DNA from: Labia minor
Taxonomy: Eukaryota; Arthropoda; Insecta; Dermaptera; Spongiphoridae
DNA: 64,000 nt
NCBI GenBank assembly: GCA_963082975.1
Contig: OY720350.1
Location: 17,950,910 to 18,014,909 of the forward strand
Reading direction: 5' to 3'
Numbering within the stretch: the stretch's first letter is position 1; each line of letters opens with the position of its first letter. Under the pieces are notes generated by a model. It worked only from the letters and a program-made list of their open reading frames with translations. It was not told the origin of the DNA and ran no database searches. Below, in pieces: positions 3,749 through 62,341 of the stretch. The position numbers and the translations under genes are program-made.

Positions 3749-4791
3749 AAAATGAGAAGTCGATCAATTTACTAGAAAAAAAACAATCAACAAATGTCAC
3801 TAGATTTGCAATCGATATAATTTTAAAATGTTTTATTATTTATTATCATTATATTAATATTATATTGCTTTCTATAATATATAATATAATAATTTTATAT
3901 AGAAATAGATAAATATATAATATTAAATATTAATTAATAACAAATAAATTAAATGAAATTTCAAATATTTATGATAATGAAAATAAAAACCAGATAGAGA
4001 AGTTTTTTCCAAAAAAAAAAAAAAAAATAAGAATTTATTGTAATTAGCATGTGAAAGAGTGTTGAAGAAGTCGTTGTTATTGTGGACCGTTTATGTTTCG
4101 ATGTTTTGTGCTCTTCCTCCTCTCTCCTCTTTACCCAATGAATGTATCTAGAGGCATGACAAAAGTTCTTTTACAAGATAAAAAAAGAAAAAAAAAATCA
4201 TCTCGTATCTGTAAAACCAGCGACAGCGTAGGGAAGAGGGATTGTAGGGGGGAGGGGGGGAAAAGAGAGAAGATGGAAGCTCGTAAAAGAGGCCTTGATC
4301 CACGAGCTAAGACGTAACAAATCACACATGATCAAAAATGACGTAGCACGAAAAATAAATATACATAAATTAACTAAACATCATAATTAGAAAATGAAAT
4401 TTCCATTTAGAACTGCATGTTATGATAATGAATTCAAGTATGGATAAAAGTGACAAGATAAATGAGAAAATAGGGATTTATTTTTTATGTTCAATGAAAT
4501 TATTTATATTTATTTTTATTTTATTTAAAATGAAATGCAAAAAAATATTTGGAAAATTGTTATTTTTATGGATTTACTTACTTAAAGTAAATGTTGATAA
4601 TATTAACACTTTAAAGGGCAATTAATAAATAATATATATTGTGTATGCAAATATGTGAGAATCTATAAATATAATAATAAAATAAATTTAATTTTTAAAA
4701 ATGAAATACAAAAACTATATATCGTATTATCACGTGACCAAAAACAAACGTCACTTTGCTTCTGCAGGGCTTGGGTACCAATAGAAAAAAT
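3749..4791. other. AT-rich stretch with small G-rich patch
   Basis: A purine-rich patch lies at 4190-4316. The short ORFs at 4093-4317 and 4422-4625 are low-complexity. No gene or repeat is recognised. Confidence 0.45.
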
Positions 4792-14720: not shown

Positions 14721-15003
14721 AGAGCTATAGCTTGGGGGGTTAACATCCTCGTGGCCCCGGGTTCAAGACCCGGGACTGGCAAGGGAATTTTTCTCGCTGG
14801 TACGGAGTCAACCCAGCCTTTGGGATCAAATTTGAGAAGCTACTTGAGAAAAAAATAACAGTATTTAATTAGTAATATTAGTATTATTAGTTAGTAATAT
14901 TCACAGTAAAGATTGATAGGACACTTGCTACTGTGATCATAAGATACCTAATTTATATAACCAACTTAATAGATCCTGTGGATGTAAAAAAGTCAGAGGT
15001 GTA
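14721..15003 (+). mobile_element. tRNA-derived SINE
   Basis: The head has a pol III A-box-like TAGCTTGGGGGGTTAAC (14728) and a B box GGTTCAAGACC (14759-14769) inside a perfect T-arm-like hairpin with CCCGGG stems. The body (ACTGGCAAGG, GGAGTCAACCCAGCC, GGGATCAAA) and the far 3' part (TTGATAGGAC, TATAACC, AAAGTCA.AGGT) match the copy at 53220-53506. There is a small insertion at about 14850-14905, and the copy ends in an AT repeat. Confidence 0.82.
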
Positions 15004-59458: not shown

Positions 59459-59463
59459 GTAAA
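59459..59463. repeat. Target-site duplication GTAAA, left
   Basis: Five bases directly outside the TGTTATG terminus, repeated at 62337-62341 directly outside CATAACA. Confidence 0.75.
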
Positions 59464-59591
59464 TGTTATGTATTTAAATAAATACAATTAAATATAATTG
59501 AAGAAGTTTATTAATCGCGTTAAAATGTATACAATAATAATAATAATAATAATATGTTTTAATAAACAAACAATTACGTCAGCTATATAAG
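59464..59591 (+). repeat. Left terminal inverted repeat (128 bp)
   Basis: Identical without mismatch to the reverse complement of 62209-62336, including seven AAT units. Perfect identity suggests recent formation or homogenisation. Confidence 0.95.
59574..59591 (+). promoter_or_regulatory. Putative core promoter of the Gypsy-derived ORF
   Basis: A CRE-like TTACGTCA (59574-59581) is followed at once by TATATAAG (59584-59591), at the inner edge of the inverted repeat and pointing into the ORF. The ATG lies only 22 bp from the start of the TATA-like box, so a start 25-30 bp downstream would miss it. Transcription may begin further upstream. The mirror copy at the right end would fire antisense. 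Confidence 0.5.
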
Positions 59592-59605
59592 TCAGCCATA
59601 CATTA

Positions 59606-60160
59606 ATGTCACATAGTGTGACTTTCGAAATTTATAACAAAGATGAGGATTTTTCTTTATACAAAGAAAGACTAGAAAATTTTTTCAATTTACGACAACT
59701 CACGGCTGATACGGATGAAGTCCGGGTTGCTAAGCAACAAATTTTATTAAACTGTATCGGTAGTCAAACTTATAAATTGCTATCATCTCTCTGTGCACCT
59801 AAAAAACCTAATGAACTGACGTATAAAGAAAATATTGAACTATTAGAAAAGCAACTGTGTCCAACTATCAATGTTTTCACAGAAAGGCATAAATTTTTAT
59901 CAAGGATTCAATTAAAGCATGAAACGTTATCAGCTTATATAGCTGCATTGAAATTAAGCAGTCAAAAATGTAAATGGGAGTGCAATGGGTGCAGCCAGCA
60001 AGTAGACTCAGTGTTCATAGCTCAATTTATTAGAGGTTTAAGTGACGCAAACATAAGAGAGAAAATTTTGCAAATGGAATCAGCTGACACGGCAGATGTA
60101 AATAAAGTTTTAGAATATGCATTAAATATTGAGGCAGCAAGAAAGGAGAATGAAGAAGAA

Positions 60161-60207
<47 letters not shown>

Positions 60208-62086
60208 CGTCAAATTTAACTGGACCAAAGACTGTGCAAGAGCATTTAAAAAAATTAAAGATGAATTAGTCAGTGATAGAGTATTGATGCCATACGATCC
60301 GGACTTACCGCTAGTTCTGGAATGCGATGCAAGTCCATTTGGGCTAGCTGCTATTTTGTCGAATGAGGTAAATGGCGTATTAAAGCCAATTCATTTTATA
60401 TCCAGGACATTGACAAATGCAGAGAAAAATTATAGCCATCTAGATAAGGAGGCGACGGCAATTTTTTGGGCGACTAAAAAGTTGTTCCAATACCTATACG
60501 GAAAAAAATTTACTCTCATAACCGACAATAAACCATTAGAATCAATCTTTAATCCTGCAAAGAATTTGCCTGCTATCACTGCACTACGGTTGACACGCTA
60601 CGCTCTATTTTTAAGGCAATTTGAATATCAAATTAAATATCGCTCGGCGGCCCAACATACACATGTTGATTATCTATCAAGATCACCGGTCTCAAGTGTA
60701 AAAGAAGGATTTGTTGATGAATCTTATGAATTTGAACAAAATACAATAAATAAATTGTGTATATCACACATATCAGAAGCTATCACTGCTGTGACCGTAA
60801 AAAAAGAAACTGACAAAGATGAAGAATTGTCTAATTTTAGAAAAGAGCTATTAGCTAAAAGTAATTTAGAAAATATGGAGTATTCAGTACATCAAGGCAT
60901 TGTGATGAGAGGAGGGCGAGTCGTGATACCACGTACGTTACAACAAGCTATACTTAATGAGTTGCATAACACACATATTGGAGTAGTAAAAATGAAAGCC
61001 ATTGCGCGTTCTGTTTGTTATTGGAAAGGAATAGACAGGGATATTGAATCCTTAGTTAAATCGTGCAACAATTGCGCGGAAGTACACAAACAAGCTCCAA
61101 AAGCACCTCTTCATCACTGGGAGGATCCGAAAGAGCCCTGGCAAAGGATCCATGCTGACTATGCAGGTCCATTGGAGGGAAAATATTTTTTAATAGTTGT
61201 AGATGCGAAGACTAAGTGGCTGGAAATTAACTATCAAGCATCTCCTCCAACATCAGAGAGTACCATAAAAGCGTTTAAGAATATATTTGTAAATCAAGGT
61301 CTTCCATACATTATAGTAACTGACAATGCAACTTACTTCAAATCTCATGAATTTACAAGTTTTTGTGCAGCGCAAGGAATTATACAATTATTTTCAGCTC
61401 CAAACCACCCAGCAACGAATGGTTTGGCTGAAAGATTAGTTCAAACGGTAAAACAAAAATTAAAAGCAATGTTAAATTTTCAAAGCGGCTCCATTAAAGA
61501 AAAATTACAAGATATATTATTCTACTATAGGACTACACCGCTAGTTGACGGTAAAACACCAGCCGAACATCATATTGGAAGACAGTTAAAAACAAAATTA
61601 CACCTTTTAAAACCAGTACCAAAAGGCCTTTATCTTAGACCAGAAGAGCATAAGACAGAGAGACAATTCTGTAAGGGACAAAGAGTGCTATCAAGACACT
61701 ACTTTGGTAATAGGAAGTGGCAATTTGGAATTATATTGAATAGAGTAGGGAGATTACACTACTTGGTGAAGTTGGACTCTGGATATGTATTAAAGAGACA
61801 TGTGGACCAGCTGATATCTACTGAATGTAGAAAACGGGAAGATACTGACCAACATCTTAGCGGCTACACACGGGCTGAGGGACAAGAGCAAAAGAAGATT
61901 TTTGTCACTCTCCCACCACCTACTGAGAGAGCTGATGGGCCAATTTCAAGAACTGAGGGATCGAGTCCAAGGGAGGTCCAGCCCCCTACTCCTTCACAGA
62001 AGCAGAAGCCACCTGAATCTACTTCTCCACAGTTTGTGCGGCGATCAGTTCGGATAAGGAAACCAGTGAAAAGACTTAATTTGTAA
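59606..62086 (+). CDS. Gag-RNase H-integrase polyprotein lacking protease and reverse transcriptase
   Basis: 826 codons from an ATG with no stop. Residues 1-186 are a Ty3/Gypsy Gag of the Mag-like type (YKERLENFFNLRQL, then SQTYKLLSSLCAPKKP). Residues 187-200 are a lysine run from 42 consecutive A. The CCHC knuckle, protease and reverse transcriptase that should follow are absent. RNase H starts at about 203 with all four acidic residues present (D241, E282, D307, D355). Integrase has the zinc-binding H454, H457, C487, C490 and the catalytic triad D518, D573, E609 with the canonical 35-residue D-E spacing. A GPY/F-like module lies near 675-735, and a proline-rich tail ends VRRSVRIRKPVKRLNL. 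It should integrate DNA in the nucleus; it cannot reverse-transcribe without help. The lysine junction could be natural or an assembly join. Confidence 0.95.
60164..60205 (+). repeat. 42-nt A-run at the Gag/RNase H junction
   Basis: A pure A tract in frame within the ORF (14 AAA codons). It sits exactly where about 2 kb of knuckle, protease and RT coding is missing. Confidence 0.95.
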
Positions 62087-62132
62087 AACATGTTATAATT
62101 CAAATTTTTAATATTTTTCATTAGCAGGGGAG

Positions 62133-62336
62133 ACTGTAAAGTATCTTTTTAAATTAATCTTTTAAATCTTACAGAAGTTAGTTTACTTATATTTTGTTGT
62201 CAAGAAGGCTTATATAGCTGACGTAATTGTTTGTTTATTAAAACATATTATTATTATTATTATTATTGTATACATTTTAACGCGATTAATAAACTTCTTC
62301 AATTATATTTAATTGTATTTATTTAAATACATAACA
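62133..62336 (+). repeat. Putative 3' LTR (204 bp) of the parent retrotransposon
   Basis: It starts TGTAAAG directly after a polypurine tract and ends CATAACA. It contains TTATATAG and the polyadenylation signal AATAAA at 62288-62293. No direct 5' partner is present; only its last 128 bp recur, inverted, at the left end. Confidence 0.75.
62209..62336 (-). repeat. Right terminal inverted repeat (128 bp)
   Basis: Partner of the left repeat. Read forward, it is the distal part of an LTR ending in CA. Confidence 0.95.
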
Positions 62337-62341
62337 GTAAA
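62337..62341. repeat. Target-site duplication GTAAA, right
   Basis: Matches the left flank exactly. Confidence 0.75.

Follow-up and report, generated by a model that had tools for sequence, protein, structure and literature searches.

A 64,000-base stretch of the Labia minor genome (C9:17950910-18014909; G+C 27%), referred to below as the window, carries at positions 59464–62336 a Ty3/Gypsy-derived element whose two ends are inverted copies of the same end of a long terminal repeat (LTR). The locus is a real, recent and one-off insertion of aberrant complementary DNA (cDNA), not a new class of transposon. Very probably, it is the single faulty reverse-transcription product of an active Ty3/Gypsy element with direct LTRs and was inserted by integrase. 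Coordinates without a contig or locus name are positions in the window.

The left arm (59464–59591) and the right arm (62209–62336) are reverse complements of each other at 128 of 128 nucleotides, and the outer end of each is flanked by GTAAA, a match that would occur by chance with a probability of 0.0026 (from the base composition) to 0.0036 (from the 5-mers of the window itself). The right arm is the last 128 nucleotides of an ordinary 202-bp 3′ LTR. The left arm, its inverted equivalent, includes the TATATA motif at LTR position 77 and lacks LTR positions 1–74. The copy thus does not have direct LTRs at both ends, its arms being inverted only, and both of its termini read TGTTA, which fits the pattern TGTNR. 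Because no U3 lies in the sense orientation on the left, the open reading frame (ORF) between the arms would have no LTR promoter in its own direction on that side. An Rfam scan of the window gave no match at the gathering score, and a count of inverted 20-mers in the window is uninformative, as simple repeats contribute thousands of them. The element is laid out as follows.

59459–59463, no strand: target-site duplication, left copy GTAAA; 5-bp duplications are made elsewhere by the same family.
59464–59591, minus strand: left arm, inverted LTR positions 75–202 from the TATA motif to the U5 end, beginning TGTTATG; 100% reverse complement of 62209–62336.
59590–59591, no strand: 2-nt overlap AG at the arm–gag junction (native ...CCAG|TCAG, arm ...TAAG|TCAG).
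59592–60163, plus strand: gag fragment without the first 44 Gag codons and the zinc knuckles; no differences from relative L010 over 572 bp.
59606–62086, plus strand: 826-codon fusion ORF comprising truncated Gag, poly-Lys, RNase H and integrase; starts 44 codons inside native gag.
60164–60205, plus strand: run of 42 adenines (A42) in place of the zinc knuckles, protease and reverse transcriptase (RT); native flanks hold only AA and A7.
60206–62134, plus strand: RNase H, integrase (H2C2, D-D-E) and polypurine tract (PPT), assigned with Pfam and the PDB; one difference from L010 over 1929 bp.
62135–62336, plus strand: complete 3′ LTR of 202 bp, TGTAAAGT...ACATAACA, directly after AGCAGGGGAGAC; assigned by LTR mapping and comparison with relatives.
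62337–62341, no strand: target-site duplication, right copy GTAAA, matching the left copy.

The preliminary description of this DNA had reported the perfect 128-bp inverted ends, the GTAAA on both sides and an 826-codon ORF, all of which sequence comparison confirmed, and its view that an LTR element had been remodelled to have one and the same LTR end at either terminus is supported by the mapping of the 3′ LTR and of the inverted arm, which identifies that end as U5. In Pfam, the ORF matches RT_RNaseH_2 (4.3e-32), RT_RNaseH (2e-29), Integrase_H2C2 (4.3e-13) and rve (5.4e-9). Its best PDB match is Ty3 Gag-Pol (2.9e-31), and, in an alignment read by eye, the D-D-E residues of its integrase core line up with those of Ty3. 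The Gag part matches PNMA and DUF7083, both below the cut-off. As the preliminary description had also stated, no RT or protease is matched in the ORF by Pfam; neither is a tyrosine recombinase, an integrase being present instead, and the C-terminal 148 amino acids have no Pfam match at E values up to 5, so no OTU or Ulp1 domain is matched there. The ORF had been called intact, which is a misleading label. It is open over its 826 codons, but its ATG corresponds to native position 261, which is 132 nt (44 codons) after the ATG at 129 and hence inside native Gag, and it is a fusion across A42. Gag and RNase H share one frame in relative L009 too, and a fusion across A42 would keep that frame by chance in about 1 case in 3.

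The source family was identified by searching the assembly of the same genome (604,477,936 bases, 71 contigs) with the arm, which gave 57 candidates, 40 of which were scored as matches and grouped into 27 loci. The window element is one of these; the remaining 26 were fetched, mapped and sorted by hand within the fetched stretches; the survey leaves out the 17 unscored candidates as well as C5:77315341, C5:77975785, C10 ~15.088–15.090 Mb, C6:18977941, C6:23327523 and C9:48064413, which were seen via junction queries only. In seven loci, internal sequence is flanked on either side by LTR sequence in direct orientation (L009, L010, L011, L012, L013, L017, L031), four have one LTR with internal sequence (L015, L016, L018, L034) and nine are LTRs alone (L014, L020, L021, L027, L028, L029, L030, L032, L036). 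The remainder are an LTR fragment (L035), two tandem arrays holding LTR tails (L022-L023, L024-L025) and three rearranged copies with target duplications (L019, L026, L033).

This family is an ordinary direct-LTR Ty3/Gypsy element of about 4.8 kb that was recently active. The best-kept relatives have this length, with an internal region of 4403 bp in both L009 and L010, and the LTRs of L009, L010, L011 and L013 measure 202, 199, 197 and 209 bp, respectively. Between paired LTRs there are no mismatches in L009, L010 and L013, four in L011 and 11 in L017. Target duplications of 5 bp bracket full copies (GGCCC at L009, TAATT at L010, TTTTA at L011, GTATG at L013) and solo LTRs (ATAAG at L014, TCGAT at L020, ATTTG at L021); none is present at L017 or, by reading of the flanks, at L029 and L030. 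The AAAG followed by TGGCGACGAGG after the 5′ LTR of the relatives is a probable primer binding site (PBS). Frames were read in five copies. L009 keeps a single frame open over 1410 codons, which includes two zinc-knuckle motifs and a DTG protease motif, and the frames of L010, L011, L012 and L013 are interrupted; the DTG motif is also present in L010. In Pfam, L009 matches RVT_1 (1.6e-24); its weak protease match and its zinc finger and Gag matches are all below the cut-off. No relatives outside the genome were confirmed in collections of viral and prokaryotic DNA.

The window copy differs from L010 by no nucleotide over 572 bp on the gag side and by one over 1929 bp from RNase H to the PPT, which makes a single substitution over 2501 bp; in the LTR, the two differ by one 3-bp ATT unit. 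This supports the recent origin put forward in the preliminary description. Compared with L009, there are 3, 10 and 1 differences on the gag side, from RNase H to the PPT and in the LTR, respectively, and, the ATT unit aside, the parts that the window copy has in common with L009 and L010 are 99.5–100% identical. Judged by its RNase H, H2C2–DDE integrase, PPT, 3′ LTR and 5-bp duplication, the window copy belongs to Ty3/Gypsy by descent. On its left, native internal sequence from 1 to ~244 is gone, and with it the PBS, the leader and the first gag codons. The probable PBS of the relatives is not found in the element, in agreement with the preliminary description, and its sole match in the window, at 14746, has 2 mismatches. 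Between the gag and RNase H pieces, 1656 native nucleotides with the zinc knuckles, the protease motif and RT are absent, and A42 fills this gap; as the native flanks supply at most AA and A7, at least 33 adenines come from neither flank. There are seven ATT units in each window arm, and five relatives have 7/7, 6/6, 6/6, 8/8 and 3/1 in their two LTRs. Because the counts are equal in both arms and vary among relatives, one arm probably served as the template for the other.

Both novel junctions of the window copy were found only once. Of the 54 candidates retrieved with the arm–gag junction as query, 40 were scored, and 41 matches resulted. One of these, the window locus, spans the junction (1–201); among the others, 25 reach no further than base 52, on the arm side, and 15 begin at base 51 or later, on the gag side. 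The A42 junction is likewise spanned (1–201) by the window locus alone among 21 matches, with 21 of 21 candidates scored. Within 20 kb, the 40 scored arm matches form 13 neighbour pairs, 12 of them on the same strand, and the sole opposite pair is the window's own. The genome search proposed in the preliminary description as a check for a mobile family thus finds the arm at many loci and the inverted pair at the window locus only, and no further copies with shared inverted ends are present among the scored junction and arm matches. The right flank is single-copy except for two short weak matches.

A family with direct LTRs and 5-bp duplications, junctions that are unique among the scored matches and a 2-nt overlap at the point where the left arm meets gag in mid-LTR are the observations from which we infer that the growing minus strand changed template inside the particle and continued on minus-strand DNA. 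In one route, the minus strand would stall with its 3′ end in gag, fold back on itself at LTR position 75, close to its 5′ end, and be extended to the U5 terminus; in another, a nascent minus strand that had arrived at LTR position 75 would jump into the gag of another minus strand. Both routes would lead to the same molecule with U5 at both ends. Because the minus strand would be copied out to its own 5′ end, a single step would account for the two U5 ends and for the identity of the arms. Because the arm extends beyond the TATA motif, it was probably copied from a template that contained part of U3, not from strong-stop DNA by itself. The integrase, presumably supplied by more complete copies, would then process both U5 ends and insert the DNA with a 5-bp duplication. 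The loss of the zinc knuckles, protease and RT together with the gain of A42 would probably reflect a second switch at an A-run, with about an even chance that its target was the poly(A) tail of a gag RNA that had ended early. Having no sense-strand LTR promoter, PBS, RT or protease, the window copy is expected to be a dead end. For human immunodeficiency virus type 1 (HIV-1), self-priming of minus strong-stop DNA is described as a source of aberrant cDNA (PMC4668388), and integrase in vitro favoured pairs of U5 ends, with a 5-bp duplication in most sequenced products (PMC8742673).

Several points weigh against this reconstruction. A single product does not reveal the order or the number of switches, and an overlap of 2 nt is weak evidence for any primer pairing; a shuffling test for longer gag–LTR primer pairing gave P = 0.10. 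The A42 run could alternatively stem from slippage at a short A-run. An ATTAAA ends 37 nt upstream of it, which is rather far for a poly(A) signal; two variant hexamers lie closer, AAGAAA ending 19 nt and AATGAA 9 nt before the run. The locus is known from the assembly alone, and 17 of the 57 arm candidates and 14 of the 54 arm–gag junction candidates lie outside the scored sets.

Other copies of the family carry comparable joints. L019 (3814–5032; C2:60397813-60399031) begins with a 5′ LTR and leader, continues with two segments of internal sequence in reverse and closes with the tail of an LTR. It is bracketed by GATAT on both sides and has, at one junction read by eye, an 8-nt overlap; it is a second strand-switched cDNA of the family. 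L033 (4566–5813; C10:12108065-12109312), in which LTR positions 1–109 are followed by reversed gag segments, the PPT and a full LTR between flanks that agree in 4 of 5 letters (GTATG/GTAAG), is a probable third such product. U5 at both ends occurs in neither. In L026 (4692–5041; C5:57291191-57291540), which is bracketed by TATAG, LTR positions 1–76 are joined directly, at internal position 4321, to the final 83 bp of internal sequence, after which a full LTR follows, and the LTR break lies 1–2 nt from the window arm boundary. L013 has an internal deletion (2035–2085) joined at A12, with A5 in each native flank. These four copies indicate that strand switching, and switching at A-runs, recurs in the family; minus-to-minus switching in particular appears recurrent, and A-runs may be preferred switch points. 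Since L019 and L033 suggest such recurrence, the switching rate of the family could be measured.

The preliminary description had considered a new class of integrase-driven transposon. In such an element, the Gag–RNase H–integrase fusion would act on its own U5/U5 inverted repeats, and the locus does have inverted ends fitting TGTNR, an open integrase with H2C2 and D-D-E and a 5-bp duplication. Excision is thinkable because retroviral integrases can reverse strand transfer, and some Ginger families are nearly single-copy themselves, as stated in the Ginger report (PMC2836005). We nevertheless give this reading a slim chance, as the junction was found once among the scored matches with no other opposite-strand arm pair, there is no sense U3 on the left and thus no LTR promoter for the ORF, no protease is matched that could free the integrase, and, being one substitution from a direct-LTR copy, the window copy has no history of its own. 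The new class is therefore unsupported. The related reading of the locus as a newborn Ginger-like unit, in which a flanking promoter would drive expression of the fusion protein, whose integrase would act on the paired U5 ends, has an equally slim chance; if true, a retrotransposon would have become an inverted-repeat DNA element via one reverse-transcription error. As a finding that would speak against its transposon, the preliminary description had named a single copy whose relatives are all ordinary direct-LTR elements. This is nearly what the survey shows, the departures being the inverted internal segments of L019 and L033.

Autointegration, in which an LTR end of the cDNA attacks its own interior, is known for retroviral cDNA and can give inversions. 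It would join the LTR terminus (CA) to internal DNA, whereas here the internal junction lies at LTR position 75 and the terminus is outside, next to GTAAA, which contradicts an autointegration product and leaves this origin most improbable. Of the two one-off origins named in the preliminary description, self-integration and template switching, the latter is thus the probable one. An assembly or amplification artefact is the least probable reading of all. Inverted duplications do arise in some libraries, but the arm ends precisely where the LTR does and is preceded there by a matching 5-bp duplication that chance would rarely supply (0.0026–0.0036), and the right flank is single-copy save for the weak matches noted above. 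Very unlikely, too, is a nested insertion or later rearrangement, by which the inverted LTR of another copy would have come to lie at the left or the 5′ LTR would have been inverted. A course of this sort has been suggested for Ginger1 (PMC2836005). Here, however, the composite in its entirety lies within a single matching 5-bp duplication, which is not expected from two independent insertions, and the arms are identical including the ATT count.

The template-switched cDNA favoured here shares its LTR, PPT, RNase H–integrase order and 5-bp duplication with the Ty3/Gypsy family of the same genome and differs from it in the inverted partial left LTR, A42 and the absence of PBS, leader, protease and RT. 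With Ginger1 and Ginger2/TDD it has in common a Gypsy-like integrase between inverted repeats (128 bp) and TGTNR ends. As given in the Ginger report, the repeats of Ginger1 and Ginger2/TDD are ~40–270 and 50–180 bp long with TGTNR ends; Ginger1 makes 4-bp CCGG/CCGT duplications, carries OTU or Ulp1 domains and has the motifs YPYY and GPY/F; and the duplications of Ginger2 and TDD are 4 and 5 bp, respectively (PMC2836005). The window copy differs from Ginger1 in its 5-bp GTAAA duplication and in having no OTU or Ulp1 match after the integrase. Furthermore, the Ginger families have their own lineages, some of them very small, whereas the window element is one copy with Gag and RNase H parts. Because it descends from a local direct-LTR family, its likeness to Ginger is resemblance only.

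DIRS-1 has inverted LTRs, a tyrosine recombinase and an internal complementary region (PMC5633606); the window copy is likewise a retroelement with inverted LTR ends and differs in its integrase and target duplication. Complexes of Triticeae LTR elements that were inserted as one unit with a target duplication are, like the window copy, aberrant cDNA ascribed to template switching (PMC1950507). The Triticeae complexes join parent elements, and the words 'inverted' and 'inversion' do not occur in the main text of that report. No Gypsy element with inverted LTR ends was found among the titles and abstract openings of the papers listed, which is no proof of absence from print, as subscription journals lay mostly outside this search.

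The locus is a natural insertion with U5 at both ends and implies that a Gypsy-type integrase is able, in the cell, to insert DNA of the U5/U5 kind and leave a correct 5-bp duplication; the HIV-1 work in vitro gave a comparable result (PMC8742673). How an LTR element becomes a DNA transposon has been called an unclear chain of events, for which two oppositely placed LTRs were suggested in the Ginger report (PMC2836005). By the reverse-transcription error proposed here, direct LTRs would give way in one step to inverted repeats that enclose an integrase gene; this is a concrete path, simpler than two opposed LTRs, and a possible step by which a retrotransposon comes to resemble a DNA transposon. 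The locus thus shows a route to the inverted-repeat architecture, not to mobility.

Two further features of the family concern its LTRs. In both L012 (811–1236) and L031 (4633–4869), the 5′ LTR carries an insertion near position 75, presumably of hAT-like elements, with an 8-bp overlap of LTR positions (68–75 and 74–81); the spot coincides with the window arm boundary. In the tandem arrays, the LTR tail repeats every 5,676–5,677 bases in L022-L023 (C10, 5.565–5.585 Mb) and, in the opposite orientation, every 5,198–5,204 bases in L024-L025 (C4, 38.326–38.342 Mb).

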